This document shows positions 1,032 through 14,877 of a DNA stretch of 14,877 nucleotides, in pieces. The DNA lies in NCBI GenBank assembly GCA_011620445.1, contig WOZB01000243.1, positions 1 to 14,877 on the forward strand, written 5' to 3'. Source of the stretch: Anaerolineaceae bacterium (GTDB lineage Bacteria; Chloroflexota; Anaerolineae; Anaerolineales; Anaerolineaceae). The translations under genes were made by a program, and so were the position numbers. The first letter of the stretch is position 1. Each line of letters opens with the position of its first letter. A model generated the notes under the pieces. That model was given only the letters and a program-made list of their open reading frames with translations, made no database searches and was not told where the DNA came from.

Positions 1032-1062
1032 AGCCGAAGCACCTTGCTTCGGCTTGATTTTT
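1032..1062 (+). terminator. Rho-independent terminator of the FMN reductase gene
   Basis: A perfect 9-bp stem, AGCCGAAGC (1032-1040) with GCTTCGGCT (1046-1054), has a 5-base loop and is followed by TGATTTTT. It lies 24 bases after the stop codon. It shows that the hydroxylase gene downstream needs its own promoter. Confidence 0.85.
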
Positions 1063-1084
1063 AAGCAAACCAAAGACTTCTTTT

Positions 1085-1200
1085 TCATTCTGGGGAATGA
1101 CGTAGAAAGAATGGCATCGATAACCTCGATGTTCAAGCTAGCTTTCTTCAGCGATGCTCACCACGCTCAAGCAATCAAAAGGAGAGATTCTTGCCCCATA
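1085..1200. repeat. Probable degenerate intergenic repeat remnant
   Basis: The spacer between the FMN reductase terminator and the hydroxylase contains GGGGAATGACG (about 1093-1103), GATGCTCACCACGCTCAAG (about 1153-1171) and GGAGAGATTCTTG (about 1182-1194). These resemble broken pieces of a GGAGATTCTTCGCT...CTCAGAATGAC type repeat that I remember as common between genes of Chloroflexota metagenome assemblies. The reading frame of the downstream gene happens to stay open through here, but its translation does not resemble any domain of that enzyme. The identification is from memory. Confidence 0.3.
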
Positions 1201-1256
1201 CTAAACGCAATTACTTCGAAAACGACATCCCAGGCAGCCCAATCGCACCCCAAAGG

Positions 1257-1262
1257 TATAAT
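1257..1262 (+). promoter_or_regulatory. Consensus -10 box just upstream of the hydroxylase start
   Basis: A perfect TATAAT ends 7 bases before the ATG at 1270, so transcription from it would begin at or next to the start codon, giving a leaderless mRNA. No convincing -35 lies 16-18 bases upstream (GCAGCC region). AAAGG at 1252-1256 could instead be a ribosome binding site, but its 13-base spacing is long. The two readings exclude each other. Confidence 0.35.
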
Positions 1263-1269
1263 ATTCCCT

Positions 1270-4188
1270 ATGCTACTGCAATTCACCCTCAACGGCGAGC
1301 CTTGTGAAGTTGAAGCCCGGCCTGGCGAAAAACTTTCCGACTTGCTGCGCCAACGCCTGGGGCTGACTGGCACAAAAGTGGGCTGCGGTGAGGGGCGCTG
1401 CGGTATTTGCACTGTATTGCTGGACGGTATACCGGTCCGTTCCTGCTTAAGCCCAGCTGAAAAGGCGGAAGGAAAATCAATCCTCACAGTTGAGGGTTTA
1501 CGGAAAATTGCCCAAAAACTTGCCCGCCCCCAGCGCAAGCTGACTGAATACGAAAAACGCGGTGCCTTTGGAGAGAACCTGCACTTGCTTCACCCATTGC
1601 AGGAGGCTTTCATTCGCTATGGTGCCATCCAATGCGGTTTTTGTACACCGGGTCAGTTGATGCGCGCCTATGCCCTTTTGGAAGCCAACCCTAACCCCAC
1701 AAGCGCAGAAATTCGGGCGGCTATGAATGAAGTATTGTGCCGCTGCGGTTCGTACGAGCTTATCGAAGGGGCCATCCAGGCAGCCGCGAAGGCCGTGCGC
1801 ACAGGCACTGAAGTTGAGGACCCTGCTTTCTTTGAAAACTATTCCCAAGCATCTGCCAGGAGCACCGAAATTTACTCCCATGTCGGCCAGCCAGCTATCC
1901 GCCCGGATGCCTTGGCCAAGGTCTGCGGCTCGGCAATATTCAGTGATGATCTCAGCTTCCCCGGCATGCTTTACGCCCGGGTCTTGCGCGCCGGACTGCC
2001 TTCAGCAATCCTGCGGGCCATCGATACCAGCGCCGCTAAAGCTCTGCCGGGGGTAAAGGCCGTACTCACTGCTGCTGACCTGCCGGCTGCCAGGCATCAC
2101 GGGCTTTATTACCAGGATTGGCCTGTGCTGGTTGGCCTGGACGATCGCATCCGCTATCAGGGTGATGCCCTGGCGCTGGTGGCCGCAGAAACACAGGCTA
2201 TAGCTGACCAGGCGTTGACCCTCATAAAAGTTCAAATGGACGAAAGACCGGTTGTCAGCACTCCCCAACAAGCCTTGCGGCCGGGTGCTGAGAAGCTGCA
2301 CGAGCACGGAAATTTGCTCAAGCACATCCAGGTGCGCAAAGGCTCTGTAGCTGAGGGCTTTACCGCTGCCGATGCAATTGTTGAACGCACCTACGCAACC
2401 CCTTTTGCTGAGCACTTCTTTATGGAGCCGGAGTGTTCCATAGCAGTACCCCTATTTGAGGGTGGAACGCGAGAATCTGGCTCCCAACCCCCAAGCAAAT
2501 ATGAGATTTACACGGGCTCACAAATCCCTTACGCTGACCGCCAGCAGGTGGCAGCAGCTCTTGGCTTGCCCGAAACTTCCGTGCGTGTGCGCGGCCAGCG
2601 CACCGGGGGCGGTTTTGGCGGCAAAGAGGATATTGCCGGCCAAATTCACGCTGCATTGCTTGCCCAGGCCACTGGCTGCCCGGTAAAGCTGCTTTTTACC
2701 CGCCGCGAAAGCCTGCTTGTGCACCCCAAGCGCCACGCCACAACCATCCGCGTCAAGCTTGGTGCGCATAGCGATGGTACTTTACTGGCTGCTGAAACCG
2801 AACTCTTCGGTGATACAGGTGCTTATGCTTCCCTGGGCGACAAAGTGATGACCCGTGCCACAACCCACTCAGCCGGGCCTTATATCATCCCAAACGTGAG
2901 TTCCGATTGTTACGCCACTTATACCAATAATCCTCCCGCGGGAGCTTTCCGCGGCTTTGGGGTTATGCAGGCATGTTTTGCCATTGAAAGCGCCATGGAC
3001 GACCTGGCCGCGCACCTGGGCTTGGACCCCCTTGCCTTGCGCCTGAAGAATGCCCTGCGGGCCGGTTCTGAAACCAACACCGGGCAGTTGCTGGATGCGA
3101 GCGTGGGCCTGGTAGCCTGCCTTGAAGCCATCCAGGCAGAGTGGCAGCGTTTGGGCTTGCATGAGCCTTTCAAACCAGAAGCATTCAAGGAAGACGGAAG
3201 AGATTACATAAAGGTTTGGGGCTTGGCATGCGGGTATAAGAACACCGGCCTTGGGGTTGGGGCGGATGATTTTAGCGGCGCAGAAGTAAAATTGCTCCCG
3301 GGCGGTCGCTTGCAGGTGGGCACCGCGGCAGCTGAGATCGGGCAGGGGATGGTGGCCACACTGCAGATTATTGCTGCAGAAGTTCTGCATTTGCCGCTCT
3401 TTATGATCAATGTATTCGTCATGGATACCGACCTCACTCTCGATGGTGGCCCCACGACGGCTTCTCGGCAGACCTTTGTCTCCGGTAATGCCGTCCGCCT
3501 GGCCGCACTGGAGATGCGCGAGCGCTTATTCCGGAAAGCCGCCCAGCTCTGGGGCTTGGAATTGGACCAAGTTGCGCCAGGGGCCATTCAAATTGATCAG
3601 GGTGGGATTCACCACGGCTCAAGGACCCTGACCCTCGCGGAGCTCTATCAGCATCTCAATCCCGAGGAACGCAGTGCCAAACATATCTACCACGCTCCGG
3701 AAACTGAACGGGTGGAGGATGGGCACAAGATCCATATTGCTTTCAGTTTTGCTGCCCAGGCTGTTGAGCTGCGCATAGATAAAAGCAACGGCAATCTTAA
3801 AGTGCTGCGGGTGCTGACGGCTAATGATTCCGGCCGAGTGCTCAACCCGCTGGGTTACGAAGCCCAGGTGCAGGGTGGGGTGGTGATGGGGATTGGCGCC
3901 GGACTGATTGAAGAATTCAAGGTTGAAGAGGGCGTAATTTGGTCTGACAGGGCGGCGCGTTACCCAACCCCGCGTATGCAGGATACACCTGAGATGGTCA
4001 ACCTGATCGTGGAAGAACCCATGCCAGAAGGTCCCTTTGGAGCGAAGGGCATTGGCGAGTTGGTGAGCATTCCTACACCGCCGGCCATCGCTAATGCGGT
4101 CTACCACGCAACAGGTCTGCGCGTAACCCACTTGCCTATCAGGCCAGCCGACTTGACTGAGTGGGTGCAAGGCAATCAGACTGACTGA
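1270..4188 (+). CDS. Fused [2Fe-2S]/molybdopterin hydroxylase, xanthine dehydrogenase family (XdhD-like)
   Basis: A 972-residue molybdenum hydroxylase. Residues 1-80 are a plant-type ferredoxin domain (C39, C44, C47, C59). Residues about 100-180 form the second [2Fe-2S] domain (C122, C125, C157, C159). The rest is the molybdopterin-binding subunit: hammerhead domain from about 200, cofactor loop GGGFGGK (446-452), AFRGFG (559-564), a GQG motif near 700, and GAKGIGE with the catalytic Glu at 930. E453 and R561 align with bovine xanthine dehydrogenase Glu802 and Arg880, which contact purines and are replaced in aldehyde oxidases; this favours a purine substrate. The Gln767 position is Ala380, as I remember for the XdhD / selenium-dependent XDH branch. 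There is no FAD domain and no FAD-subunit gene nearby, so its electron partner lies elsewhere. The start at 1270 fits the domain edge; an in-frame extension to 1054 overlaps the upstream terminator. It converges on the nucleoside importer operon. Family is certain, substrate inferred. Confidence 0.9.
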   Translation: MLLQFTLNGEPCEVEARPGEKLSDLLRQRLGLTGTKVGCGEGRCGICTVLLDGIPVRSCLSPAEKAEGKSILTVEGLRKIAQKLARPQRKLTEYEKRGAFGENLHLLHPLQEAFIRYGAIQCGFCTPGQLMRAYALLEANPNPTSAEIRAAMNEVLCRCGSYELIEGAIQAAAKAVRTGTEVEDPAFFENYSQASARSTEIYSHVGQPAIRPDALAKVCGSAIFSDDLSFPGMLYARVLRAGLPSAILRAIDTSAAKALPGVKAVLTAADLPAARHHGLYYQDWPVLVGLDDRIRYQGDALALVAAETQAIADQALTLIKVQMDERPVVSTPQQALRPGAEKLHEHGNLLKHIQVRKGSVAEGFTAADAIVERTYATPFAEHFFMEPECSIAVPLFEGGTRESGSQPPSKYEIYTGSQIPYADRQQVAAALGLPETSVRVRGQRTGGGFGGKEDIAGQIHAALLAQATGCPVKLLFTRRESLLVHPKRHATTIRVKLGAHSDGTLLAAETELFGDTGAYASLGDKVMTRATTHSAGPYIIPNVSSDCYATYTNNPPAGAFRGFGVMQACFAIESAMDDLAAHLGLDPLALRLKNALRAGSETNTGQLLDASVGLVACLEAIQAEWQRLGLHEPFKPEAFKEDGRDYIKVWGLACGYKNTGLGVGADDFSGAEVKLLPGGRLQVGTAAAEIGQGMVATLQIIAAEVLHLPLFMINVFVMDTDLTLDGGPTTASRQTFVSGNAVRLAALEMRERLFRKAAQLWGLELDQVAPGAIQIDQGGIHHGSRTLTLAELYQHLNPEERSAKHIYHAPETERVEDGHKIHIAFSFAAQAVELRIDKSNGNLKVLRVLTANDSGRVLNPLGYEAQVQGGVVMGIGAGLIEEFKVEEGVIWSDRAARYPTPRMQDTPEMVNLIVEEPMPEGPFGAKGIGELVSIPTPPAIANAVYHATGLRVTHLPIRPADLTEWVQGNQTD

Positions 4189-4202
4189 AGAATTTTTCAT
4201 TC

Positions 4203-4226
4203 CTAAAATTGTTTTTGAAATTTTAG
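4203..4226 (+). terminator. Weak AT-rich hairpin after the hydroxylase gene
   Basis: CTAAAATT (4203-4210) can pair with AATTTTAG (4219-4226) around a T-rich 8-base loop, starting 14 bases after the stop codon. The stem is AT-rich and lacks a T tract after it, so it may be a weak terminator or chance. Confidence 0.3.
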
Positions 4227-4284
4227 CCTGCAGAAACATTTTCCTGACAAATTATTTTTTCTCGATGAAGGATTTTTACCCTGT

Positions 4285-4405
4285 AGTTCTTGGCGGCAGA
4301 TCCTTTGGCATTGCCTCAGGGTGACAAGCTGCGAGAAGGCAGCGTGTAAACCGTTCCTGCAACATGACTGGGCAGGAATCTTCGTTGCCCCGTCCTTACG
4401 TCGGA
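4285..4405. repeat. Degenerate copies of an intergenic repeat
   Basis: Most of the 313-base gap between the two convergent genes. GGCAGATCCTTTGGCATTGC followed by CTCAGGGTGACAA (about 4291-4323), then CTGCGAGAAGGCAGCG (about 4329-4344), then AATCTTCGTTGCC and CCGTCCTTACG (about 4377-4400) read like decayed copies of the GATCCTTCGC...CTCAGGATGACA and TCATTGCGAG...AGCAATC...CGTCCTTACG elements. I remember these as frequent in Chloroflexota intergenic DNA. There is no open frame or RNA gene here that I recognise. The assignment is from memory and needs a genome-wide self-comparison. Confidence 0.35.
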
Positions 4406-4420
4406 TAGCAATAGGAAATT

Positions 4421-4455
4421 AGATTAATTAAAGAGGCTGACAAAAAGTCAGCCTC
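4421..4455 (-). terminator. Terminator of the BMP/Nup ABC transporter operon
   Basis: Read on the minus strand, GAGGCTGAC and GTCAGCCTC (4447-4455 and 4433-4441) form a perfect 9-bp stem with a 5-base T loop, followed by TTTAATTAATCT. It lies about 46 bases after the last stop of the importer operon and points against the oncoming hydroxylase transcript. Confidence 0.8.
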
Positions 4456-4501
4456 GGAGAAAGTGCTTATTCCTAAGATTTATTAAGAATAATCATAAGG
4501 T

Positions 4502-5467
4502 TTATAAACCGCGCTCACCGCGGATGTAAGGCTCGCCAAGGGCGGCAGGTGCGCCAAGGCGTTTACGGCGTGCAGCGGATGAGCCCCAAACCAGGGCAAT
4601 AATAGTCAACAAGTAAGGCGCCATCTGCAAAAAGAAGACCAGGTTGCGGTCATAAAAGAAGGGGTTTTTCATGCCCAGCAACATGGCAGGACCCTGCAAA
4701 TCCAAAAGCAAACGCCGCAGCATTCCGAACAGGTAGCCACCGAGGGCGGCGCGGGTGGGGTTCCATTGAGCAAAAATGACCAACGCCACCGCGATCCAAC
4801 CCTGGCCACTGGTGGTCAGGTGGCTGTACCAACCGGGAGAAATGGCGATGCTGATGGATGCGCCAGCCAGCCCGGCGAAACACCCACCGATAAAGGTGTA
4901 AAGATAACGCAGGCGATATACACTTACCCCCAGTGTATCTGCAGCATCCGGTTTTTCGCCAACGGCACGCAGGTGCAGGCCGGGTTTGGTTTTGAAAATG
5001 AAGAGCCAGGCAATCGGAATCAACAGGTAACCAAAATAGGTGAGCAAATTATGGTCGGTGAATAATATCTGCCCAAGATAGGGGATCTTCGAAAGAAGCG
5101 GCACTGTGAAGTTTGGGATGGTAGCGGTGGTCAGCCCGGTCAGGCCTTCACCCAGGACCAGGGCTATACCCGTTCCCAGGAAAGTAAGCGAGAGACCGCT
5201 AACCGTTTGGTCAGCCTGGAAGGAGATAGTCACCAGTCCGTGCAGAAGACTGAGTATGCCGCCAGCCAGGATGGCTGCTAGCAAACCCACCCAGGCATTG
5301 CCGGTGGTGTAAGCAATTTTGAAGCCAGCCATTGCCCCAAGCAGCATCATACCTTCGATGCCGAGGTTCTGGACGCCGGAACGTTCGGTGAAAATCTCAC
5401 CAATCGCGGCGATGAGCAAAATCGTGCCGGTAGCGATTCCAGCGTGGAAGATGACGGTAAAGTTCAT
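4502..5467 (-). CDS. Nucleoside/purine ABC importer, second permease (NupQ/BmpC type)
   Basis: A 321-residue inner-membrane permease of the branched-chain amino acid/sugar permease family (BPD_transp_2), with roughly eight to ten hydrophobic segments. The N-terminal stretch IGEIFTERSGVQNLGIEGMM (residues 22-41) is the hallmark of the second permease of BMP-linked importers (NupQ, YufQ, BmpC). A conserved cytoplasmic coupling loop with GLHLRAVGEKPDAADTLGVS follows mid-protein. The C-terminus is basic (ARRKRLG). Its ATG overlaps the stop of the preceding permease by four bases (ATGA, 5464-5467), which indicates translational coupling and a heterodimeric channel with that protein. It is the last gene of the operon. 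Family assignment is firm; nucleoside rather than another ligand is inferred from family knowledge. Confidence 0.92.
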   Translation of the reverse strand: MNFTVIFHAGIATGTILLIAAIGEIFTERSGVQNLGIEGMMLLGAMAGFKIAYTTGNAWVGLLAAILAGGILSLLHGLVTISFQADQTVSGLSLTFLGTGIALVLGEGLTGLTTATIPNFTVPLLSKIPYLGQILFTDHNLLTYFGYLLIPIAWLFIFKTKPGLHLRAVGEKPDAADTLGVSVYRLRYLYTFIGGCFAGLAGASISIAISPGWYSHLTTSGQGWIAVALVIFAQWNPTRAALGGYLFGMLRRLLLDLQGPAMLLGMKNPFFYDRNLVFFLQMAPYLLTIIALVWGSSAARRKRLGAPAALGEPYIRGERGL

Positions 5468-6603
5468 TCTGCCTCCTCAACCGCAGCGGATTTGGCTTGA
5501 ACAATCTCACCGTTCTTGTCAGTACGGACCACGCGAATGGTATATTTGAGCAGTACATCACTGGAAATCACCAGGAAAAGGATGATTCCCTGGATGAGGA
5601 ACGATACACCGGAAGGTTGAATCTCACGCCCCGCAACAATCAGCGCGCCAAAAAGAACCGAAACCAGGATGACCGCGAAGGGGTTTAATTTTGCCAGCCA
5701 GGCGATGATGACACCCGAGAAGCCATAATTGGTTGAGATGCGTTCCTGTAAACGGTGCACCACGCCACTCACCTCAGCCATACCTGCCAAACCAGCCAGC
5801 GCACCAGAGAACATAAAGACCAGCACGATATTGCGGGTGATGTTGAGGCCGGCATATTTGGCAGCTTTGGGGTTGTCACCGATCAAAGTGATCTTGTAGC
5901 CCCAGCGGCTCTTGTAGAGGATCAACCATACAATCACAGCGGCAATCAGGCCAAAGATAACGCCCAGATGTAAAGTGATGCCGGAGAAGCCCTTATATTG
6001 CTTGGCAAAATCAGATAATCTTGGCAGCCAGGCGATCTTTGGGAACATCTTGGTCATTTGGAAGCCAGCATCGCTGTACTTCCCAAAGATCCAGTAGTTA
6101 TTCCAGAAGACGGCGATGTAGTTCAGCATCAGGGTGGTGATGACCTCGTTGATGTTGTATTTGGCACGCAGAATTCCGGGAATGAAGCCGTAGAGGGCGC
6201 CGCCTAACATTCCCATCAGCATCATCAGACCTAATACCAGCACTTTCGGGGTGGCCTCAAGGTCGACCATGGGCAGCAGAATCACCATGCTCGCGAAAAA
6301 AGCACCCATGTAAAACTGGCCTTCTGCGCCGATGTTCCAAAGTTTCATTTTAAAAGCAAACGCGCAGGCCAGGCCAATTAAGAGCAAAGGTGTCGCTTTG
6401 ACGATCACATCAGAGACTGCTCCCCAGGAGCCAAAACTGGCAGTCCAGAAGAATGAATAGATGCGAATAGGGTCAGCACCGACGCTTAAAAGAATCAGAC
6501 CGCTGAACACGAAAGCAAGCAGCACAGCGCCCACACTGGTAGCGGCAGGCAGCCACTTGGGGTAATCTTCAGTGCGTTTTTGGACGTCTAAACGGAGGCC
6601 CAT
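5464..6603 (-). CDS. Nucleoside/purine ABC importer, first permease (NupP/BmpB type)
   Basis: A 379-residue integral membrane permease, longer than its partner as usual for NupP/YufP. After a short charged N-terminus, hydrophobic helices begin near residue 20. FAFKMKLWNIGAEGQFYMGA (about residues 82-101) is the family signature, and the central coupling loop contains GYKITLIGDNPKAAKYAGLN. The cytosolic C-terminal tail is charged (DKNGEIVQAKSAAVEEAE). Its start codon shares one base with the stop of the ATPase gene (TAATG on the minus strand), with AGGGAG just upstream as ribosome binding site inside that gene. It should pair with the second permease to form the import channel across the cytoplasmic membrane. 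Confidence 0.92.
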   Translation of the reverse strand: MGLRLDVQKRTEDYPKWLPAATSVGAVLLAFVFSGLILLSVGADPIRIYSFFWTASFGSWGAVSDVIVKATPLLLIGLACAFAFKMKLWNIGAEGQFYMGAFFASMVILLPMVDLEATPKVLVLGLMMLMGMLGGALYGFIPGILRAKYNINEVITTLMLNYIAVFWNNYWIFGKYSDAGFQMTKMFPKIAWLPRLSDFAKQYKGFSGITLHLGVIFGLIAAVIVWLILYKSRWGYKITLIGDNPKAAKYAGLNITRNIVLVFMFSGALAGLAGMAEVSGVVHRLQERISTNYGFSGVIIAWLAKLNPFAVILVSVLFGALIVAGREIQPSGVSFLIQGIILFLVISSDVLLKYTIRVVRTDKNGEIVQAKSAAVEEAE

Positions 6604-8201
6604 TACTCAGCTCCCTGTTCATTGAGATCGGTTGGCTGGGTGCGAGTCTCCGCGGGAGGACAAGCTGGGTCACCCCTCAAAGAACCGATCATCATCAGCC
6701 CGATGGTGTTGATGTCAGCCTCTTTTTGATCCATAACCCCGACGATCTCGCCTTCGTACATTACGGCCACGCGGTCGGAGAGCGAAAGCAATTCTTCGAG
6801 GTCCTCCGAAACCAGCAAGATGGCGCTACCTTTTGAGCGTTCTTCAAGTAATAGGTCCAAAACGGCTTCGATCGCGCCAACGTCCAGCCCACGGGTCGGC
6901 TGCATGGCCACAATCAATCTTGGTTTGGACGAGAGCTCGCGCGCCAAAATCAGCTTCTGCAGGTTGCCGCCCGAAAGCTTGCGGGCTTGCGTTTCGATGC
7001 TTGGCGCTTGAATTTTGTATTGGTTTTTGAGTTCCTCAGCGTGTACGCCGGCCGCAGTGTAGTTGACCCGCCAGGCATTGCTGATAGGGGCGTGATCGTA
7101 GCTCTTCATGATCACGTTTTTTGTCAGAGAGAGATTAGGGGCGGTACCTACCCCAATGCGGTCTTCTGGTATGTGCGCTAGTCCTGCTGAGATAGAAGCC
7201 TGTGGGCTCTTGTTGGCAATTTCCTTGCCTTCGAGCAGGATGTGCCCGGTGCATTCCCTAAGACCGGTGATGACTTCAACCAGCTCCGACTGGCCGTTGC
7301 CAGCCACACCAGCGATACCCAAAATTTCGCCTTCCTTGAGGCAGAGGTTGACTTTGCGCAGCGCGGGCAAGTTCTTATTGTTCACCGCGGAAACCTCCTG
7401 CAGTTCCAGTACAACCTCACCGGGGGCCTGATCCTTCTTTTGCAGGTTAAAGATTACTTCGCGGCCTACCATCAGTGAAGCCAAAGCCTCACGGGTAATA
7501 CCTTCCACTGAAATGCCTTCCGCGGTGGCCCGGCCCTTGCGTAAGATGGTCAATCGATCAGCGACCGCGCACACCTCGTTCAGTTTATGGCTGATAAAGA
7601 TGACAGATTTGCCTTGCCTGGCCATACCGCGCAGGGTTTCGATCAGTTCGGCGGCTTCCTGGGGGGCCAGTACGGCCGTCGGTTCGTCCATAATAAGAAT
7701 TTGCGCGCCGTGATAGAGAATTTTGAGGATCTCCACGCGCTGCTGTTCACCAACGCTGAGCTGCCATATTTGCGCGGTTGGGTCAATCTGGATGCCAAAT
7801 TGTTCCGCAAGCTCCCTGACCTTCTGATCGTATTTTTTGATGTTGAGCACGAATTTAGGCTCGTCCAAACCGATCAGGATGTTTTCGGTGACGGTTTGAT
7901 TGGGCACCAGCATAAAGTGTTGGTGTACCATGCCGATGCCGCTGGCAATTGCGTCCTTGGGTGAGCCAAAACTGACATGCTTGCCATTTACAATGATCGT
8001 GCCAGAATTTGGCTTGTAGAGCCCCATCAGCACATTCATCAGCGTACTTTTACCAGCGCCGTTCTCGCCAAGAAGCGCGTGGATTTCACCTTTGCGCAGG
8101 GTGAAGTTCACGTGGTCATTGGCCAAAACGCCAGGGAAGCGCAGCGTAATGTCTTTCATTTCGACCGCAAGGGCCTCGTTTGTAGTTTCCTGGAGGGTCA
8201 T
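6603..8201 (-). CDS. Nucleoside/purine ABC importer, double ATP-binding protein (NupO/BmpD type)
   Basis: A 532-residue cytosolic ATPase with two ABC domains in one chain, as in all BMP and sugar (MglA/RbsA) importers. First domain: Walker [10 protein letters not shown] (45-53), Q-loop Q94, signature LSVGEQQ (148-154), Walker B ILIMDEP (168-174). Second domain: the Walker A region is GVAGNGQSE, without the lysine-serine core; the signature is LSGGNLQK; and the Walker B region reads AMQPTRGLD, with Gln where the catalytic Glu would be. This degenerate second site is normal for the NupO branch and is not damage. The start at 8199-8201 has only a weak upstream AGGA; the next ATG (8157-8159) would remove the first 14 residues. 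It sits behind a strong hairpin that separates it from the binding-protein gene. Confidence 0.93.
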   Translation of the reverse strand: MTLQETTNEALAVEMKDITLRFPGVLANDHVNFTLRKGEIHALLGENGAGKSTLMNVLMGLYKPNSGTIIVNGKHVSFGSPKDAIASGIGMVHQHFMLVPNQTVTENILIGLDEPKFVLNIKKYDQKVRELAEQFGIQIDPTAQIWQLSVGEQQRVEILKILYHGAQILIMDEPTAVLAPQEAAELIETLRGMARQGKSVIFISHKLNEVCAVADRLTILRKGRATAEGISVEGITREALASLMVGREVIFNLQKKDQAPGEVVLELQEVSAVNNKNLPALRKVNLCLKEGEILGIAGVAGNGQSELVEVITGLRECTGHILLEGKEIANKSPQASISAGLAHIPEDRIGVGTAPNLSLTKNVIMKSYDHAPISNAWRVNYTAAGVHAEELKNQYKIQAPSIETQARKLSGGNLQKLILARELSSKPRLIVAMQPTRGLDVGAIEAVLDLLLEERSKGSAILLVSEDLEELLSLSDRVAVMYEGEIVGVMDQKEADINTIGLMMIGSLRGDPACPPAETRTQPTDLNEQGAE

Positions 8202-8220
8202 GGGCGGGATATTCCTAAGA

Positions 8221-8253
8221 ATAGAAGGATGGCTCAGAGAGCCATCCTTCTAT
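8221..8253 (-). terminator. Strong intercistronic hairpin between binding-protein and ATPase genes
   Basis: A perfect 14-bp inverted repeat (8221-8234 with 8240-8253) has a 5-base loop. It begins 16 bases after the binding-protein stop and ends 19 bases before the ATPase start. On the minus strand it is followed by TTCTTAGGAAT, a poor T tract. It probably acts as a partial terminator or an mRNA-stabilising 3' end that raises binding-protein output over the membrane components. Confidence 0.7.
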
Positions 8254-8269
8254 TAATATATGGTTCGGT

Positions 8270-9535
8270 TTAGAGATCTGGCAATTCAGCGGTGACGTTT
8301 TCGTTCCACCAGTACATGCAGGTCTTGCATTCGCTGCCAAATTGCTTGAAGCCATCGAGGTCAAGCTGTTCAAGGCTGACGCCATCAGCAAGCACTTGAT
8401 TGCCCTTATTGTCGGTGATGGGGCCTTTGAAGACGTCGAACCGGGTGAATTCACCAGCCAGCATCTTGGCTATCAGATCCTTGACCATTTGAAGGTCTTC
8501 GGCAGGGAGTTCAGCCACACCGGGCTGCATTGTTTCGCCTTCCATGAAGCCGAGCAGACCCAAGCCACCGGAATCGCCATCAAAGTAATCCCAGGTGCCC
8601 TTCCAGGTGCCAGCGCGTGAGCCTTCTACGATTTTGCCGTAGATGGGGCCCCAGTTCCAGTACATGGAGGTGAGGCAAGTGGGCAGGGTGCAGTTGCCAG
8701 AATAGTCATAGGTAATGCCCCATTTGCCTTCAGGTGCAGCAATGGCGGGGGCGGGGGTGTCAGCACCGGTCATAACGATCTGAGCGCCGGCATCGAAGAG
8801 CGATTTGGCACCTTCCTGTTCGAGGATGGGATCGTGCCAGGTATTGATGAAGCGTACATCGATCTTGCATTCGGGGCAGGTTTTCTGAACGCCCAACGCG
8901 AAGGCATTGCCCAGGCGCAGTTCTTCAGGGATGGGGAAGGTGGCCATGTAACCAATCTTGGGGTTGCCATCTTTCATAGCACGGGAGCCAGCCAGTATGC
9001 CTGCAAAGTACTTGATGTCTTCCATGGCACCCATCAGGTTGCCAAAGTTTGCCTGGTTGGTCTTGTAACCAGAGACATGGATGAAGTCGATATCAGGGAA
9101 TTCATTGGCGACGGTTTCGGTTGCATCCATGAAGCCAAATGAAGTGGTGAAGATCACATCAAAACCCTTGCGGGCGAGTGAACGGGTCACCTGTTCGGCG
9201 TCGGTGCCTTCCGCTACGTTTTCGACATAGGCGGTGTGGACGTCTTTGAGGTTGTCTTGGACCCACATGCGGCCTACATCATGCGACTGGGACCAGCCAC
9301 CATCATCGTGGGGGCCAACATAGACCCAGGCGACATTGTAGCAACCTTCGATTGGGGCCGGAACCTGGTAAGTACCAACCGCTTCAGAGGCAGTGGCGGC
9401 CGAACAGTCTACGGCAGCAGGTGCAGCGGGTTCGGCTGGGGCAGCCGTGGGGGCAGGAGTCGCGGTTTGGCAGGCGGAAAGCAGCATAGCCAGCACCAAA
9501 ACCAGACTGGTAATAAGGACGAGCTTGTTCTTCAT
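8270..9535 (-). CDS. BMP-family substrate-binding lipoprotein (nucleoside/purine importer)
   Basis: A 421-residue secreted lipoprotein, the ligand-capturing component of the ABC importer encoded downstream. The signal peptide MKNKLVLITSLVLVLAMLLS ends in a lipobox, LLSAC, with the lipidated Cys at 22. An Ala/Pro/Thr linker (23-41) follows, then the BMP/PnrA domain with the typical DDGGWSQSHDVGR, residues like GNLMGAMEDIKYFAGILAG, and TSMYWNWGPIY. Known BMP proteins (PnrA, BmpA, NupN) bind purine nucleosides; the exact ligand here is inferred. The start at 9535 is chosen because GAAGGAGAAAG lies directly upstream and the signal peptide begins there; an in-frame ATG at 9628 would add 31 unrelated residues. 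Unusual: eight cysteines in the mature domain (44, 65, 220, 223, 282, 287, 403, 406), arranged as four possible pairs. I found no convincing promoter in the 174 bases upstream. Confidence 0.92.
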   Translation of the reverse strand: MKNKLVLITSLVLVLAMLLSACQTATPAPTAAPAEPAAPAAVDCSAATASEAVGTYQVPAPIEGCYNVAWVYVGPHDDGGWSQSHDVGRMWVQDNLKDVHTAYVENVAEGTDAEQVTRSLARKGFDVIFTTSFGFMDATETVANEFPDIDFIHVSGYKTNQANFGNLMGAMEDIKYFAGILAGSRAMKDGNPKIGYMATFPIPEELRLGNAFALGVQKTCPECKIDVRFINTWHDPILEQEGAKSLFDAGAQIVMTGADTPAPAIAAPEGKWGITYDYSGNCTLPTCLTSMYWNWGPIYGKIVEGSRAGTWKGTWDYFDGDSGGLGLLGFMEGETMQPGVAELPAEDLQMVKDLIAKMLAGEFTRFDVFKGPITDNKGNQVLADGVSLEQLDLDGFKQFGSECKTCMYWWNENVTAELPDL

Positions 9536-9670
9536 CTTTCTCCTTCTTGTTAAGTAAAAATGGCTCTTCACTTGGTCGGATGGACTGCACAGTAAATCAA
9601 CTGCGTTTGCCGTCCCAAACCAGTTCATGCTTAATTTTACTGCAAAGGACCTGATTAGGTGAATATTCGA

Positions 9671-9709: not shown

Positions 9710-10195
9710 TTAGTTTGCCTGGGTGATTCGGAATGATTGGCCGTCAAGCGCGCGCATGGTGGCCAGAATGCCATCCAGATGGTCAAACTCATGCTGGATA
9801 AGCTCAGAGAGCGAACCTGAAAATGCAATTTTCTGGGGACGTAAGTGCCTGTCCTGGAAGGTGAGCAGACAATTTTTGAAGCGTTCCACATGCACCAATA
9901 AGCCTGGGAAGCACATGCAATCATCCCAAACAAGCATCTTTTCGCTGTCTGGAAAGGTGAGGGAGGGGTTAACGATGAGCATGGGCTCATCGGTGTGCAT
10001 ATAGAGCACGCGTTTTTGGATGCCAATCTGCGGCGCGGCGATGGCGCGGCCGGCCTGGTGCAAGCGGCGGTAATCAAGCAGGGTGTCGCGCAGATCCGTT
10101 TCGAGCTGGGGCAGCATGGCAGATTCTTCAGGTGCGAGAGATGTGCTGGCCTGGTAGAGCTGGGGGTCGCCGAGTAAGAGGATGGGCTGGATCAT
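9710..10195 (-). CDS. Peptide deformylase-like metalloenzyme (divergent motifs)
   Basis: A 161-residue protein of the peptide deformylase fold, which normally removes the formyl group from new proteins using a metal held by one Cys and two His. Motif 3 is canonical: QHEFDH at 134-139, giving H135, catalytic E136 and H139. Motif 1 reads GRAIAAPQ (49-56) with Ala in place of the second Gly. Motif 2 reads DDCMC (91-95) where typical enzymes have EGCLS; C93 is the likely metal ligand. The active site is therefore complete but the protein belongs to a divergent branch, possibly a secondary deformylase or an enzyme for another formyl or amide substrate. The start at 10195 (MIQPILLLGDP) matches where the family begins. 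An in-frame ATG at 10276 has a fair AAGG upstream, and one at 10315 is also possible. It is transcribed toward the importer operon and divergently from the LacI regulator. Confidence 0.85.
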   Translation of the reverse strand: MIQPILLLGDPQLYQASTSLAPEESAMLPQLETDLRDTLLDYRRLHQAGRAIAAPQIGIQKRVLYMHTDEPMLIVNPSLTFPDSEKMLVWDDCMCFPGLLVHVERFKNCLLTFQDRHLRPQKIAFSGSLSELIQHEFDHLDGILATMRALDGQSFRITQAN

Positions 10196-10316
10196 GGAAC
10201 CTACAACCAATTCTAATCTTATTGTTGTGTTTTTATGAGCGGTCAAGAGAATATTTTTGAGCGGATCAAACTGCATCTCTAACATCCTTGAAGAGATTTT
10301 GCCTTTCTGAACCACA

Positions 10317-10407: not shown

Positions 10408-11403
10408 ATGAAAAAACAGTCTCCTCCCACATCAAAGCAAGTTGCTGAAATAGCCAAGGTCTCCCAATCAACCGTTTCCCGGGTATTTAGCGGTATGGAC
10501 GGCATCAGTGAGGCCACCAAAAAGCGGGTTTTCAGCACGGCTGAGAAGATTGGTTATCGCCCGAACGCGATTGCCAGAAGTTTGATTTTAAATCGTTCCA
10601 ATTTAATTGCCATGGTGGCCCTGGGGGTTCAGAATCCTTATTACAACGTGGTAATCAATGAGGTCGCCTCGAGAATCCAGAAGATGAATCGAGAGCCCTT
10701 ATTTTTCATTGCCGAGAAAGAAAAAGGGGTCGATCAGATCCTGGGCCAGGTGATGCAGTATCGGGTTGATGGAATCATTGTTCTTTCGGCGGAAATGTCG
10801 CCCGCAATGGCAGCCGAGTTTGAAAAAATTAAGACCCCCATGGTGATTTTTAACAAATTAACGCACATAGCCAATGTAAAAACGATTTGTTCGGACAACG
10901 AAAAAGCTGGGCGGGACGCGGCTGATCACCTCTTTAGCCGGGGCTATCGAGAACCTGTATTCGTAGGTTCTTCCACATTTCACATAACCAGCCTGACGCG
11001 TGAGAAAGGTTTCGTCAGTCGATTTGAAGAACTGGGATGTAAAGTTCAGATTTTGCAGCAGATCCCATATTCTTATCAAGCAGGAAAAGTGATTATTGAA
11101 GAACTTATCAAGAGCCAGACGCATTTTGATTCGATTTTTTGCGCCGCGGACCTGTTCGCCCTGGGAGCCATCGATCAATTAAGGAATTCATCCATTCGTG
11201 TACCTGAAGATGTTGGCATAATTGGGTTTGATAATATCGAATTCGCATCGTGGCCATCTTATCAACTGACCACATTCTCGCAACAAACCGAAACCATGCT
11301 GGATGCCTGTTTTGCCTACCTGGATACAAAACTGGAAGGGCATGAAAACGGCAGCGATATTCAACTATTCCCCTGTGAATTAATCCATAGAAAGACAACC
11401 TAA
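10408..11403 (+). CDS. LacI-family transcriptional regulator
   Basis: A 331-residue repressor of standard LacI/GalR length. The N-terminal DNA-binding domain has the helix-turn-helix from residue 8 (TSKQVAEIAKVSQSTVSRVF), followed by VSxxT-like ISEATKKRVF and the hinge motif GYRPNAIARSL (49-59). From about 65 it has a periplasmic-binding-protein-like sensor domain (MVALGVQNPYYNVV; DGIIVLSA; GIIGFDNIEFASW; LTTFSQQ) that should bind a sugar-like inducer. No clear ribosome binding site precedes the ATG; the next ATG is too far inside the helix-turn-helix region. It is encoded directly upstream of, and in the same direction as, the dehydrogenase/transport operon. A palindromic operator with a central CG sits at that operon's promoter, so this protein very likely controls it. 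The inducer is presumably the imported compound or its first metabolite. Confidence 0.95.
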   Translation: MKKQSPPTSKQVAEIAKVSQSTVSRVFSGMDGISEATKKRVFSTAEKIGYRPNAIARSLILNRSNLIAMVALGVQNPYYNVVINEVASRIQKMNREPLFFIAEKEKGVDQILGQVMQYRVDGIIVLSAEMSPAMAAEFEKIKTPMVIFNKLTHIANVKTICSDNEKAGRDAADHLFSRGYREPVFVGSSTFHITSLTREKGFVSRFEELGCKVQILQQIPYSYQAGKVIIEELIKSQTHFDSIFCAADLFALGAIDQLRNSSIRVPEDVGIIGFDNIEFASWPSYQLTTFSQQTETMLDACFAYLDTKLEGHENGSDIQLFPCELIHRKTT

Positions 11404-11436: not shown

Positions 11437-11465
11437 TTGACAGGGCAAGGATCGGGGATTAACAT
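11437..11465 (+). promoter_or_regulatory. Promoter of the dehydrogenase/MglB operon
   Basis: A perfect -35 TTGACA (11437-11442), a 17-base spacer and the -10 TAACAT (11460-11465, four of six consensus bases) predict a start near 11472. That position falls inside the palindrome at 11469-11490. The leader to the first gene would be about 50 bases. Confidence 0.75.
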
Positions 11466-11468
11466 TTA

Positions 11469-11490
11469 GTTAAGCATACGTATGCATAAC
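11469..11490. promoter_or_regulatory. LacI-family operator over the transcription start
   Basis: A 22-bp palindrome with 10 of 11 base pairs matching: the core GCATACGTATGC (11474-11485) is perfect, one mismatched pair follows outside it, then GTTA (11469-11472) pairs with TAAC (11487-11490). The central CG step is where LacI-family hinge helices usually insert. Bound repressor would cover the predicted +1 and block initiation. The adjacent regulator gene is the obvious partner. Confidence 0.85.
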
Positions 11491-11521
11491 ACTCAATTGG
11501 AGAAATGAGGATTTTGCCTGC

Positions 11522-12490
11522 ATGATCCAAAATGTCTTGATCGTTGGATGTGGGACGATGGGCAGCGCTATCGGCGTCTGCGCGGCTGCGGCTGGCAACA
11601 AGGTTGTTTACTATGATAACGGCTCGGACTTCCCACAGAACATCAAAAACCGTACGAACGGACTCCTGGACGAACTGCTCTCTTATGATTTGATCCCGGC
11701 TTCCGATTTGGATGCCATAAAAGCGAGATTGGAATCCTGCGCAGACTTATGCGCTGCCGTGTCCCACGCGGACCTCATCATTGAGGCAATCTACGAAAAC
11801 CTGGAAGCAAAGCAAAAATTATTTACGGAGCTGGATGCGTTTGCAGACCCCTCCATTCCAATCCTTAGCAACACTTCCGGATTAAGAATTACAGATATCA
11901 GCAGCCAAATGCGCTACCCTGAGCGGGCTTTAGCTGCTCATTTTTGGCTGCCAGCACATTTGATTCCCCTGGTGGAGATTGTTATTGGCGATAGAAGTTC
12001 ACCTGAACTGGCAGAGCGCATCAAAGAAATACTGATGGGGTGGGGGAAGACGCCCGTGATCGTGAAAAAGGACTTGCCTGGTCAACTGGCCAACCGCATA
12101 CTACAAGCAGTCATCCGGGAGGCGGTAAACATTGTTGAGACTGGCCTTGCCAGCCCAGAAGATGTTGATAAAGCTATTCAAATTGGTATGGCATTGCGCT
12201 TTCCGGTTTGGGGCCCCCTGGAGCATGTGGACGCAGTAGGTTTTGATATCTGCAAATCTGTACAAGACACTGTCTTACCGGAAATTTCAGATCGCAAGCA
12301 AGCTTCCCCACTTTTTGCTGAAATGATGACTGCCGGTCACTCAGGTGTAAAGAGTGGTGAAGGCTTTTATGACTGGACTACGAAAGATATCAACACGTTG
12401 GTTAAGAGGCGTAATGATTTCATTGTGTTCGCACTTAAACAGATTAAGCAAAGTCATTTATCTGCCGACCTCGAATTAAACAAGGAGTAA
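11522..12490 (+). CDS. 3-hydroxyacyl-CoA dehydrogenase family NAD-dependent oxidoreductase (lambda-crystallin/gulonate dehydrogenase-like)
   Basis: A 322-residue single-module dehydrogenase. The N-terminal Rossmann fold has the dinucleotide motif GCGTMG (9-14) and an acidic D32 after strand 2, favouring NAD. The catalytic set of the 3-hydroxyacyl-CoA dehydrogenase family is visible: S119 in NTSG, H140, E152 twelve residues later (as in the His-Glu pair of the human enzyme) and N191. The helical C-terminal domain follows from about 185, containing LRFPVWGPLEHVD. The stand-alone size and the sugar-type operon suggest relatives such as L-gulonate 3-dehydrogenase or carnitine dehydrogenase that oxidise a 3-hydroxy acid, not fatty-acid oxidation. 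It is the first gene of the operon; GAGG 11 bases upstream is its only ribosome binding site. The next gene's AAGGAG overlaps its stop, so the two are tightly linked. Substrate unknown. Confidence 0.88.
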   Translation: MIQNVLIVGCGTMGSAIGVCAAAAGNKVVYYDNGSDFPQNIKNRTNGLLDELLSYDLIPASDLDAIKARLESCADLCAAVSHADLIIEAIYENLEAKQKLFTELDAFADPSIPILSNTSGLRITDISSQMRYPERALAAHFWLPAHLIPLVEIVIGDRSSPELAERIKEILMGWGKTPVIVKKDLPGQLANRILQAVIREAVNIVETGLASPEDVDKAIQIGMALRFPVWGPLEHVDAVGFDICKSVQDTVLPEISDRKQASPLFAEMMTAGHSGVKSGEGFYDWTTKDINTLVKRRNDFIVFALKQIKQSHLSADLELNKE

Positions 12491-12492
12491 GC

Positions 12493-13581
12493 ATGCCTGC
12501 GTACGAATTGCCCGAAAAGATGACTGCCTGTGTATTGACCCGCCCCGGCGAGTTTGAAATCCAGCACGATATTCCCGTTCCACAACCCGGTCCCGACGAA
12601 GTTTTGTGCAAAATCCGGGCTGTGGCAATCTGCGGGAGCGACCCTGAGATTATCCGGGGAGATTTAGCGGGTTCATGGCCCCCCAGCTATCCATTTATTG
12701 CCGGGCATGAATGGTCAGGGGAAGTGGCAGCGCTGGGTCCTGGCGTGGTGGAATTCAAGGTTGGTGATCGTGTGGCAGGTGAGGCCCATAAGGGCTGCGG
12801 CTATTGCGTGAATTGTAAACAAGGCCGATATACACTCTGCCTGAATTACGGAAAACCGGACACGGGCCATCGGCATTATGGTTTCACTACTTTTGGGGCT
12901 TACTGCCAATACCAGGTCTATTCAGTTAAAAGTGTCAACCACATGCCCGACAACGTAAGCTTCGAAGAAGGCTCGCTTTGTGATACGGCCAGTGTGTCTC
13001 TGCACGGAATTGACGTTTCGGGGATTACCTCCGGAGGCACATCCGTCGTTATCGGTCCAGGACCGATCGGCTTGTGCACGATGCGGCTTGCCAAGGCATT
13101 GGGTTCAGTGAGGGTGATTATGGTTGGCCGAGGTTCCAGATTGGAATCTGCTAAACGGCTTGGTGCCGATGAGATCGTGAATTTTATGGATGTTGAACCA
13201 ATTGCAGCCGTCAGAGAACTGACTGGCGGGTTGGGGGTCGACCAGGTGTTTGAGTGTTCCGGAGCGCCAGGTACGCTTACGCAGGCTATCCGGATGGTCA
13301 AGAAAGGAGGCAGTATTTCACTGATTGGTGTTGCCAAGGATGGTGAAATGGAATCTGTTCCATATAAATACATCACCCACAACGAAATTGCTATCTTCGG
13401 TTCCCGAGCGAACCCCAATACCAGCGGACGTGTATTAGAAATGATGTCTTCTGGCACCTTGAACGTACGGGATTTTATTACCCACCGCTTTGCGCTTACC
13501 TCGTTTGCGCAAGCTTTAGAAACATTTGTGCAACGGAAAGAGAATGCCGTCAAGGTTGTAATCCTTCCGAATCAAAATTAG
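12493..13581 (+). CDS. Zinc-dependent MDR alcohol/polyol dehydrogenase
   Basis: A 362-residue medium-chain dehydrogenase of the sorbitol/threonine dehydrogenase group. The catalytic zinc site is C47 (in CGSD), H72 and E73 (in GHEWSG), with an acidic residue near 164 as a possible further ligand. The structural zinc lobe has four cysteines: C102, C105, C108 and C116. The NAD(P)-binding Rossmann motif is GPGPIG (188-193), followed near 205-213 by VIMVGRGS rather than the acidic residue typical of strict NAD enzymes, so cofactor choice is open. AAGGAG (12482-12487), overlapping the stop of the preceding gene, gives a strong ribosome binding site. The context points to oxidation or reduction of a sugar, polyol or sugar acid in the same pathway as the neighbouring dehydrogenase. 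The specific substrate cannot be assigned. Confidence 0.92.
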   Translation: MPAYELPEKMTACVLTRPGEFEIQHDIPVPQPGPDEVLCKIRAVAICGSDPEIIRGDLAGSWPPSYPFIAGHEWSGEVAALGPGVVEFKVGDRVAGEAHKGCGYCVNCKQGRYTLCLNYGKPDTGHRHYGFTTFGAYCQYQVYSVKSVNHMPDNVSFEEGSLCDTASVSLHGIDVSGITSGGTSVVIGPGPIGLCTMRLAKALGSVRVIMVGRGSRLESAKRLGADEIVNFMDVEPIAAVRELTGGLGVDQVFECSGAPGTLTQAIRMVKKGGSISLIGVAKDGEMESVPYKYITHNEIAIFGSRANPNTSGRVLEMMSSGTLNVRDFITHRFALTSFAQALETFVQRKENAVKVVILPNQN

Positions 13582-13594
13582 TCAAGGAGAGAAA

Positions 13595-14671
13595 ATGAAG
13601 AAATTTATAGTCCTCTTATTAGCTGCAATGCTCGTCATAATGGCTGCTTGCAGCGCTGCTCCTGTACAGGCTCCCGCTGTGGAACCTACAGAGGTTGCCC
13701 AGCCCGCGGAAACGAAGTTGCCGGTTATCGGAGTTGCAATTTTTGATTACTCCAATAACTATGTCACCTATATTCGCAACTCCATCATGGCCGTCTCCGC
13801 CGGAAAAGCTGACATCCAGATGGCTGACGCACAAAACGATCAGGCCAAGCAAGTTGAACAAATCGATTTGCTGCTGAGCAAAGGTGTAGATGCCCTGGCT
13901 GTGAATGCGGTTGACCCCAAAGCTGCCGCGACGATCATCGCCAAAGCCAAAGCTGCCGATGTTCCTCTGATTTTCTTTAATCGCAGCCCATCCAAGGAAG
14001 ACATGCTCAGTTACGACAAGGCCTGGTATGTGGGTACAACCCCGGAAGATTCTGGCCGCATGCAGGCTGAAATGGCAATGGATGCCTTCACGAAAGACCC
14101 CACCTTTGACAAAAATGGTGATGGGATCATGCAATATGTAATCCTGAAGGGAACTTTGGGCCATCCGGATGCTGAAGCCCGTACACAGGCAAACCAGGAT
14201 ACATTCGCCGCGGCAAATTTCAAGACTGAATTGCTTGATGTTCAACCAGGCGATTTCAAGACCCAGACTGCCAAAGACGTGACGGATGTTTGGATGGGAA
14301 AATTCGGCGACAAAATCGAAATGATCCTTGCCAACAACGACGCCATGCTGCTTGGTGCCATTGAAGCTGCCAAAGCTGAAGGCTACTTCGGCGGCGGCAA
14401 GAAAATGGGCGCTGTCGGTATCAATGCCTTACCTGAGATCCTGCCAAAAATTAAGGATGGTACCATTATCGGGTCGATCCTTTCCGACGCTTACTCAGAA
14501 GGGCTGAACATCTTCACCATGGCTTATAATGTAGCCACCGGAAAAGACGTTTATGAAGGTGTCACAATTGCACCTGATGACATGAAAGCTATCCGGGTAC
14601 CATATGTGCCGATCTCCATTGACAATGTTCAAATTGCTGAGGAAATGTACGCCAAAGCACTGAAGAATTAA
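13595..14671 (+). CDS. MglB-like sugar-binding lipoprotein with calcium loop
   Basis: A 358-residue periplasmic-type binding protein (Peripla_BP_4). The lipoprotein signal ends IMAAC with lipidated C19, then comes an Ala/Pro/Glu linker to about 42. It aligns closely from memory with E. coli galactose/glucose-binding MglB: FFNRSPS (127-133), SYDKAWYVGT (139-148), LGHPDAEART (188-197) and IEMILANNDAM (241-251). The calcium loop is kept (D172, N174, D176, Q180, E242). Contacts D192, R196 and the ANND asparagine are conserved, but other MglB contacts change: Y10 to F50, D14 to N54, F16 to Y56, K92 to R130, W183 to F221, D236 to N278, N256 to S297. The ligand is therefore probably a related sugar or sugar derivative and not simply galactose. 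AAGGAGA (13584-13590) is a strong ribosome binding site. A stable hairpin follows, then an MglA-like ATPase. Confidence 0.93.
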   Translation: MKKFIVLLLAAMLVIMAACSAAPVQAPAVEPTEVAQPAETKLPVIGVAIFDYSNNYVTYIRNSIMAVSAGKADIQMADAQNDQAKQVEQIDLLLSKGVDALAVNAVDPKAAATIIAKAKAADVPLIFFNRSPSKEDMLSYDKAWYVGTTPEDSGRMQAEMAMDAFTKDPTFDKNGDGIMQYVILKGTLGHPDAEARTQANQDTFAAANFKTELLDVQPGDFKTQTAKDVTDVWMGKFGDKIEMILANNDAMLLGAIEAAKAEGYFGGGKKMGAVGINALPEILPKIKDGTIIGSILSDAYSEGLNIFTMAYNVATGKDVYEGVTIAPDDMKAIRVPYVPISIDNVQIAEEMYAKALKN

Positions 14672-14683
14672 GTCTTGACCCAA

Positions 14684-14718
14684 AGACAAGGCGGAAAGTT
14701 TTGCTTTCCGCCTTGTCT
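14684..14718 (+). terminator. Strong intercistronic hairpin between MglB-like and ATPase genes
   Basis: A perfect 15-bp inverted repeat (14684-14698 with 14704-14718) has the loop TTTTG. It begins 12 bases after the stop and ends 17 bases before the ATPase start. The tail GTTTCAG is poor for full termination, so partial termination or 3'-end protection of the binding-protein message is likely. Confidence 0.75.
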
Positions 14719-14735
14719 GTTTCAGAAAGAATTTT

Positions 14736-14877
14736 ATGGATAGTACACCTTACCTTCTCCAAATGAAGGGAATCAGGAAGGAATTTCCTGGTGTAAAAGC
14801 ATTAACAGATGTTGACTTGAATGTTCAAGCTGGCTCGGTTGTGGCATTAGTCGGTGAGAATGGAGCTGGCAAGTCGA
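14736..14877 (+). CDS. MglA-like sugar ABC transporter ATPase (5' part, cut by window end)
   Basis: Only the first 47 codons are present. They read like the start of MglA/RbsA/XylG-type double ATPases (normally about 500 residues): [20 protein letters not shown] followed by a turn and the Walker A motif GENGAGKS at the edge. A weak GAAAGA lies upstream of the ATG. With the MglB-like protein it should form an importer; a permease gene is expected beyond the window. Confidence 0.9.

Follow-up and report, generated by a model that had tools for sequence, protein, structure and literature searches.

A possible operon for the uptake and oxidation of a hexose altered at C3, cut off at a contig end in an Anaerolineaceae bacterium

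What compound would a bacterium take up through a galactose-type importer whose neighbouring genes encode a 3-hydroxyacyl-CoA dehydrogenase (3HCDH)-fold enzyme and a zinc dehydrogenase? The question is raised by contig WOZB01000243.1 of an Anaerolineaceae bacterium (assembly GCA_011620445.1), whose full 14,877 bases are referred to here as the window. An original prediction had described a tight operon in which a LacI repressor, these two enzymes and an MglB/MglA-like importer follow one another without galactose genes. We found the LacI regulator, the 3HCDH-fold enzyme, the zinc dehydrogenase (ADH1), the MglB-like protein and the start of MglA in line, with frames and families as described, and the importer is indeed not joined to galactose genes. 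The coding gaps from the 3HCDH gene onward are 2, 13 and 64 nt. The window spans a complete contig of a fragmented assembly of 299 contigs and 1.92 Mb, and the operon is therefore truncated. Our answer is a tentative one: the window may hold the leading half of a catabolic operon under LacI control, completed here from other genomes, for import of a C3-altered hexopyranose, its C1 oxidation to a lactone, hydrolysis to the aldonate and C3 redox chemistry by the 3HCDH-fold enzyme. The genes are as follows.

10408-11403 (+): LacI-family transcriptional regulator with helix-turn-helix (PF00356, 48.8 bits; cut-off 27) and sugar-binding domain (PF13377, 83.5 bits; cut-off 26.5), just upstream of 11437, where the original prediction began
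11522-12490 (+): 3HCDH-fold dehydrogenase (PF02737, 156.3 bits; PF00725, 73.3 bits)
12493-13581 (+): ADH1, a zinc medium-chain dehydrogenase/reductase, sorbitol/threonine dehydrogenase-like (PF00107, 94.2 bits; PF08240, 91.2 bits)
13595-14671 (+): MglB-like lipoprotein substrate-binding protein, pocket changed on the C3/C4 side (PF13407, 171.8 bits; ten best structure matches all MglB or galactose-binding proteins)
14736-14877 (+): mglA-like ATPase gene, first 47 codons, cut at the contig end

The 3HCDH-fold enzyme had been predicted to carry H140, E152 and N191, and all three are present. We aligned 28 subfamily members, 27 selected from the best 120 matches plus the homologue of locus L006 (see below). 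All 28 have H140 and E152, and 27 have N191; G120, Q188, R226, W230 and H235 are likewise invariant, and W142 occurs in 27. As a comparison set, we used the best matches in 67 other loci, comprising 66 from a scan of genomes with the window enzyme and the second copy in its own genome. These relatives have Ser or Ala at position 120 (67), Phe at 142 (67) and Phe at 188 (67). Position 235 is Leu or Ile in 66 of them, and positions 226 and 230 mostly fall in a gap (52 and 62). The acyl-CoA-type set Ser120/Phe142/Phe188/Leu235 is replaced by Gly/Trp/Gln/His in the window subfamily. The enzyme represents a distinct subfamily with invariant residues of its own, which probably mean a changed substrate class, namely a polar free acid. 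We propose that it acts as an oxidoreductase of free 3-hydroxy or 3-keto sugar acids. Two further residues were dropped as markers: Pro in place of Lys at 149, taken as a free-acid mark, is shared by 53 of 69 relatives below 45% identity, and Arg122, taken as a subfamily mark, by 23 of the 67 relatives. A cofactor guess from the Rossmann motif was also abandoned (NAD-type Asp in 22 of the 28 members), as was one from the NADP look of ADH1 and of a second zinc dehydrogenase, ADH2, which rests on a general sequence rule.

All NCBIfam models score below their cut-offs. FHMPC 5-dehydrogenase is the best of them (215.1 bits against 500); 3-hydroxybutyryl-CoA dehydrogenase (NF004474) reaches 195.3 against 408, with the other acyl-CoA models also below cut-off, and carnitine 3-dehydrogenase 122.5 against 592 (NF005716) and 120.5 against 414 (NF005471). 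These scores and the changed residues support the earlier view that the protein is other than an ordinary acyl-CoA enzyme. The carnitine scores lend no support to the link to carnitine made with it, and annotations as a carnitine or acyl-CoA enzyme were rejected on these cut-offs. The parallel link to L-gulonate did not lead to a proven L-gulonate enzyme either: among solved structures FHMPC dehydrogenase leads (214.6 bits), ahead of 3-hydroxybutyryl-CoA dehydrogenases (208.9 at most), and CRYL1 follows only at 139.6.

The genome scan returned 69 loci. Three are close, L004 (a Propionibacteriaceae metagenome-assembled genome, MAG; 63% identity), L005 (a Clostridiaceae MAG, 62%) and L006 (a Ruthenibacterium MAG, 47%), and the others are at most 36% identical. 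Nine loci of the subfamily were read: the window, these three, L143, L144, L145, L149 and L150. In L005, the order is LacI, 3HCDH, ADH1, binding protein, MglA, MglC, ADH2 and a PF10282 lactonase, and L144 and L149 share it from the 3HCDH gene on. The importer genes come first in L004, followed by 3HCDH, ADH1, ADH2 and the lactonase. L143 reads binding protein, MglA, cupin, MglC, GntR, ADH1, ADH2, 3HCDH and lactonase; its small cupin gene (PF07883, 3115-3552), between MglA and MglC, may encode a sugar isomerase or decarboxylase. In L145 and L150, other permease genes precede ADH1, 3HCDH and lactonase, and a xylose-isomerase-like TIM barrel lies near the enzymes; ADH2 is missing from the 9.8 kb read of L150 and was not seen in L145, whose contig stops after the lactonase gene. 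L006 combines, at 353-5238, the 47%-identical 3HCDH gene with a LacI-like gene, an enolase-superfamily sugar-acid dehydratase and a transporter, the other operon enzymes being absent.

Across the nine loci, ADH1 stands beside the 3HCDH gene or one gene off in eight, the exception being L006, whose sequence ends 350 nt upstream. Seven loci have a readable downstream side; all of them carry the lactonase and five carry ADH2. The grouping of the enzyme genes is more than chance: it recurs in other genomes, where the 3HCDH is 48-63% and ADH1 54-70% identical to the window protein. The importers are swapped while the enzymes are kept: the MglB type is present in the window, L005, L143, L144 and L149, a ChvE-like binding protein in L004 and a CUT1-type system in L145. 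By comparison with these loci, the part cut off from the window probably comprises MglA, MglC, ADH2 and the PF10282 lactonase; the MglA fragment (14742-14876) is 67% identical over 45 residues to MglA of L005. Contig C294 (L107) of the window's own genome carries, at 1-1200, an MglA-like frame that is 46% identical to MglA of L005, ends where a transposase-like frame starts, and breaks at the same codon region where the window contig ends. We judged it unlikely to continue the window mglA, because the window and L005 binding proteins share 80% identity.

The zinc-type residues of ADH1 (C47, H72 and E73; C102, C105, C108 and C116) are invariant in eight orthologues, and its best structure is sorbitol dehydrogenase (181.2 bits). 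ADH2 comes closest to alcohol dehydrogenase structures, and D-arabinose 1-dehydrogenase ranks lower (145.1 bits). The lactonase, encoded outside the window, belongs to PF10282 (364.9 bits in L005 and 304 in L004; gathering score 21.7). The L005 protein falls below the 6-phosphogluconolactonase model NF008258 (161.7 against 370), and among structures named lactonase, leaving aside the 6-phosphogluconolactonases, the periplasmic gluconolactonase PpgL comes closest (175.2 bits). The presence of such a lactonase implies a lactone and hence a sugar oxidised at C1. Every readable locus has ADH1 and the lactonase, but some lack ADH2; the evidence therefore weakly points to ADH1 as the sugar dehydrogenase for this C1 oxidation. 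The original prediction had envisaged a two-step oxidation (or an oxidation and a reduction) of an imported sugar-like compound. That interpretation is borne out in part and extended, since the lactonase turns the two dehydrogenases into a sugar-lactone-acid route; the two-step oxidation as such was not confirmed.

The zinc dehydrogenases could also be read as acting on a polyol or cyclitol, oxidising an inositol-like compound in the manner of IolM, with the beta-propeller protein opening the ring and the 3HCDH-fold enzyme acting on the resulting acid. For both, the scyllo-inosose 3-dehydrogenase model IolM ranks with the best-scoring NCBIfam families (195.1 bits for ADH1, 198.3 for ADH2 of L004), but these scores are far below the cut-off of 450, L-threonine dehydrogenase scores about equally, and an IolG-type enzyme for the first step was not recognised. 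We regard such a route as very unlikely. Assignments of ADH1 as IolM or as L-threonine 3-dehydrogenase (200.6 bits against 458.35) were rejected.

The importer might simply serve ordinary galactose or glucose uptake, with the dehydrogenases as unrelated neighbours. MglA and MglC of L005 do pass curated cut-offs (830.3 against 828 and 438.7 against 386; the window itself contributes 47 mglA codons and no mglC). However, the binding proteins of the window and L005 score 292.6 and 296.5 against the cut-off of 420 of the MglB model NF011924 and have a coherent, different pocket, and the enzymes recur with other importers. We give this explanation hardly any credence. A plain MglB annotation was likewise rejected on the model score and the changed pocket contacts.

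Aligned with E. coli MglB, the window protein carries five substitutions (Asp14 to Asn, Phe16 to Tyr, Trp183 to Phe, Asp236 to Asn and Asn256 to Ser); Asn91, His152, Asp154, Arg158 and Asn211 are unchanged. Among these positions, we take His152, Asn211 and Asn256 to be ligand contacts. The C3 contact (Asp236) and the C4 contact (Asp14) are Asn in the window protein, and the contacts to C1, C2 and C5 are kept. In E. coli MglB, Asp236 contacts C3, Asp14 C4, Asp154 C1, Arg158 C2 and Asn91 C5, with Phe16 and Trp183 stacking on the sugar (PMC5101532).

We surveyed this pocket in 120 binding-protein homologues, these being the matches listed. All 71 that are at least 55% identical to the window protein have Asn at 236. 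The 49 below 55% comprise 35 with the canonical Asp14/Asp236/Asn256/Trp183, 12 of the Asn class and 2 mixed. Two sharp classes thus emerge at positions 14, 236, 256 and 183, Asn/Asn/Ser/Phe in 75 complete cases and Asp/Asp/Asn/Trp in 35. The source names call members of both classes galactose-binding (homologues P0121-P0240). Five operon binding proteins, those of the window, L005, L144, L149 and L143, have Asn at both 14 and 236. Using an equal size of the longest contig as a proxy for the same contig, we compared the clusters with those of the 3HCDH subfamily, both lists being the best 120 matches. Eight Asn-class clusters and 0 of 37 Asp-class clusters share the exact size of the longest contig (>3 kb) with a 3HCDH-subfamily cluster; these eight are drawn from 87 clusters with such contigs, and a jittered control gave a mean of 0.21 and a maximum of 3 in 2000. 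Taken on its residues, the binding protein suggests a re-specified MglB with a ligand altered near C3.

The proposed route would run as follows, with substrate, step order and direction being what we infer. The importer would bring in a free hexopyranose unlike glucose and galactose at C3 (and C4), most likely a 3-keto-hexose. One zinc dehydrogenase would oxidise C1 to the lactone, the cytoplasmic lactonase would open it to the aldonate, and the 3HCDH-fold enzyme would act on C3 of the free aldonate, a product that its polar site could accommodate. If a 3-keto-hexose is imported, that enzyme would reduce the 3-keto acid to an ordinary aldonate (gluconate or galactonate) and no further operon enzyme would be needed, so that a C3 ketone combined with this reduction would lead to a common aldonate by a complete and redox-balanced path. 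ADH2, lacking in some loci, would be an auxiliary reductase or dehydrogenase. Neither a phosphorylated nor a CoA intermediate would be required. The fullest version of this proposal, a widespread but rare phosphate-free route in which a 3-keto-hexose, imported by the re-specified MglB system, has its C1 oxidised and its lactone opened before the new 3HCDH subfamily corrects C3 on the free acid, for salvage of 3-keto-hexoses from oxidative glycoside breakdown, we consider unlikely.

A sugar with a hydroxyl at C3 would call for a different ending. The lactone made by an ADH and the aldonate made by the PF10282 protein would be followed by a 3-keto-aldonate from the 3HCDH-fold enzyme, CO2 loss to a pentulose and perhaps further reduction or oxidation by ADH2, a phosphate-free twin of the oxidative pentose phosphate pathway. 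The same three-step logic underlies glucose-6-phosphate dehydrogenase, Pgl and 6-phosphogluconate dehydrogenase, which counts in its favour. The similarity of ADH1 to sorbitol dehydrogenase also fits, as does CRYL1, a 3HCDH-family enzyme that oxidises L-gulonate; the product, 3-dehydro-L-gulonate, loses CO2 to form L-xylulose, and this is reduced to xylitol (PMC12435205). The mammalian decarboxylation described there needs a separate enzyme, C11orf54, no decarboxylase gene was recognised in the operons, and the change from Asp236 to Asn is left unexplained. We consider this ending unlikely, and place it after the 3-keto-hexose reading because a C3-hydroxyl sugar would need the loss of CO2 with no decarboxylase gene recognised.

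The enzymes might instead epimerise C3 of a rare hexose such as allose or gulose, through the lactone and aldonate, C3 oxidation by the 3HCDH-fold enzyme and reduction with the opposite stereochemistry by a zinc dehydrogenase, to give a common aldonate. Three dehydrogenases of two families do adjoin one lactonase, and the changed residue 236 corresponds to the C3 contact (PMC5101532). Against this, L150 lacks ADH2 and no copy was seen in L145, and an epimeric hydroxyl offers no obvious reason for Asn over Asp. Epimerisation therefore appears decidedly improbable.

Several observations weigh against the import, C1 oxidation and C3 redox conversion of a C3-altered hexose. In the window's own genome, searches failed to recover the remainder of mglA, any ADH2 orthologue (best match 33%) or the lactonase, the last, empty search having been made without a positive control; an assembly gap is the simplest reason, because even the remainder of mglA is missing. 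The 3HCDH gene of L006 stands without ADH1, ADH2 and lactonase in the part read, and the assemblies of L144 and L145 contain broken copies of that gene. PF10282 also includes true 6-phosphogluconolactonases. Among the neighbours looked at, most of them by sequence only, no Gfo/Idh-type dehydrogenase forming 3-keto-glycosides was recognised. The pocket argument leaves out L004, L145 and L150 with their other importers, and the L143 binding protein keeps Trp183. Finally, E. coli MglB with Asp14Asn as its only change still binds glucose (Kd 0.4 uM; PMC5101532), so that the altered C4 contact says little and the C3 argument depends on position 236.

Three candidate regulatory elements accompany the genes.

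11437-11465 (+): sigma-70-like promoter, TTGACA-17-TAACAT, 10 of 12 matches
11470-11489 (strand not assigned): candidate LacI-type operator, a CG-centred 20-mer palindrome with one mismatched pair (arms 11469-11479 and 11480-11490)
14684-14718 (+): RNA hairpin with a 16-bp stem between the binding-protein gene and mglA (-29.9 kcal/mol, z -7.33)

The promoter directly precedes the operator, and its statistics are weak, with 6 promoter-like sites in the region against 3.9 expected from shuffles. The operator candidate is the only 20-mer of the window with at most one mismatched pair, where sets of 40 random sequences give an expectation of 0.75 for any centre and of 0.1 for a CG centre. Similar CG-centred palindromes precede the operon in L005 and L149, whose adjacent regulators are 48% and 52% identical to the window LacI protein; no counterpart was found before the operon in L143, L144 and L004. 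With three mismatches allowed, the motif has a match in 66 of 200 shuffled windows, so that the evidence for an operator lies in position and recurrence, not in rarity. The best NCBIfam model for the regulator is RbsR, at 177.6 bits below its cut-off of 382. None of 200 shuffles was as stable as the hairpin. Such hairpins often occur where a cell makes more binding protein than transporter.

A comparison of neighbourhoods across the Chloroflexota, proposed with the original prediction, yielded no second operon: among 400 genomes of the window's own phylum, a close member is present in the window's genome only. Five of the 400 pass 1e-85, four of them at 310-334 bits against 532 for the window's own. 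These four loci (L125-L128) were rejected as copies of the operon; two carry a 3HCDH gene of about 40% identity with other neighbours, and in the other two the 3HCDH gene was not recovered and the neighbourhoods were read in part. In L126 (8970-9962) and L127 (3671-4627), a second 3HCDH group of this phylum, about 40% identical, has S-x-T-S-G and HFW motifs and a different neighbourhood. Among 60 relatives of the window's genome, the matches listed include no 3HCDH member above 39% identity. In the class of the L005 genome, 4 of 391 genomes have a hit at 1e-110, and in its order 6 of 33 at 1e-105; the counts are 1 of 345 and 1 of 377 for the class and order of the L004 genome, and 1 of 375 for the order of the L006 genome. 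The genome draws overlap, and each includes the starting genome. In a protein collection, 2091 of 7999 scored candidates pass 1e-40, and the best 120 of these 2091 go down to 52% identity. None of 51 viral stretches matching a pattern encodes a relative, and plasmids gave only Thermus dehydrogenases (43%). The family is rare and scattered, and has probably spread by transfer.

The rest of the window encodes other functions. A xanthine-dehydrogenase-like protein (1054-4188, +) has iron-sulfur and molybdenum domains in one chain and scores 725.8 bits with its best model, selenium-dependent xanthine dehydrogenase, below the cut-off of 830.45. Adjoining it is a BMP/PnrA-type importer operon (4502-9628, -) of a binding protein, an ATPase and two permeases, whose relatives are the putative B6 importer models, all below cut-off. 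A lone peptide-deformylase-like protein (9710-10315, -) has 104.2 bits with PF01327 and lies below all NCBIfam deformylase cut-offs.

The operon combines known families, with active-site changes, in an arrangement that has no assigned pathway in the literature searched, in agreement with the earlier failure to match it to a known one; no open-licence paper was recognisable by its listing or abstract as a description of the operon, and a description elsewhere is possible. If the proposed route is correct, it would give a function to a 3HCDH subfamily now labelled 3-hydroxybutyryl-CoA dehydrogenase or epimerase in databases, and to a large group of "galactose"-binding proteins whose ligand is probably not galactose (Asn stands at 236 in at least 83 of the 120 listed homologues). 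It would also offer a possible fate for 3-keto-hexoses, a fate that for Caulobacter is described as only presumed (PMC9007349).

FHMPC 5-dehydrogenase (PDB 4om8) is the best solved relative of the window 3HCDH and shares the Gly of the S-x-T-S-G motif, but lacks Q188, R226, W230 and H235. L-gulonate 3-dehydrogenase/lambda-crystallin (CRYL1) resembles it in fold, in the proposed free 3-hydroxy sugar acid substrate and in having zinc polyol-dehydrogenase relatives nearby; it is distant in sequence (139.6 and 135.5 bits) and belongs to the glucuronate-xylulose pathway, whereas the window type is a bacterial operon with lactonase and importer and no decarboxylase seen. With the MglBAC galactose/glucose importer, the system shares the families of binding protein, ATPase and permease and the positions of the stacking and C1/C2/C5 contacts; it differs in the five substitutions of Asp14, Phe16, Trp183, Asp236 and Asn256 and in its score below the MglB cut-off. 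At the level of pathway logic, the oxidative deoxyribose/deoxyribonate pathway of Pseudomonas simiae is the closest known, leading from sugar through lactone and free acid to a 3-keto acid, with enzymes that differ from those of the window operon (PMC6365646). The levoglucosan and 3-ketoglycoside pathways likewise have 3-keto-hexose intermediates, ABC importers and xylose-isomerase-like proteins nearby (PMC10066097, PMC9007349), and the xylose-isomerase-like fold used in their clusters (PMC10066097) recurs as the TIM barrel of L145 and L150. There, 3-ketoglucose is reduced directly to glucose by LgdC in those pathways, whereas the window type conserves the pair of lactonase and 3HCDH-fold enzyme.

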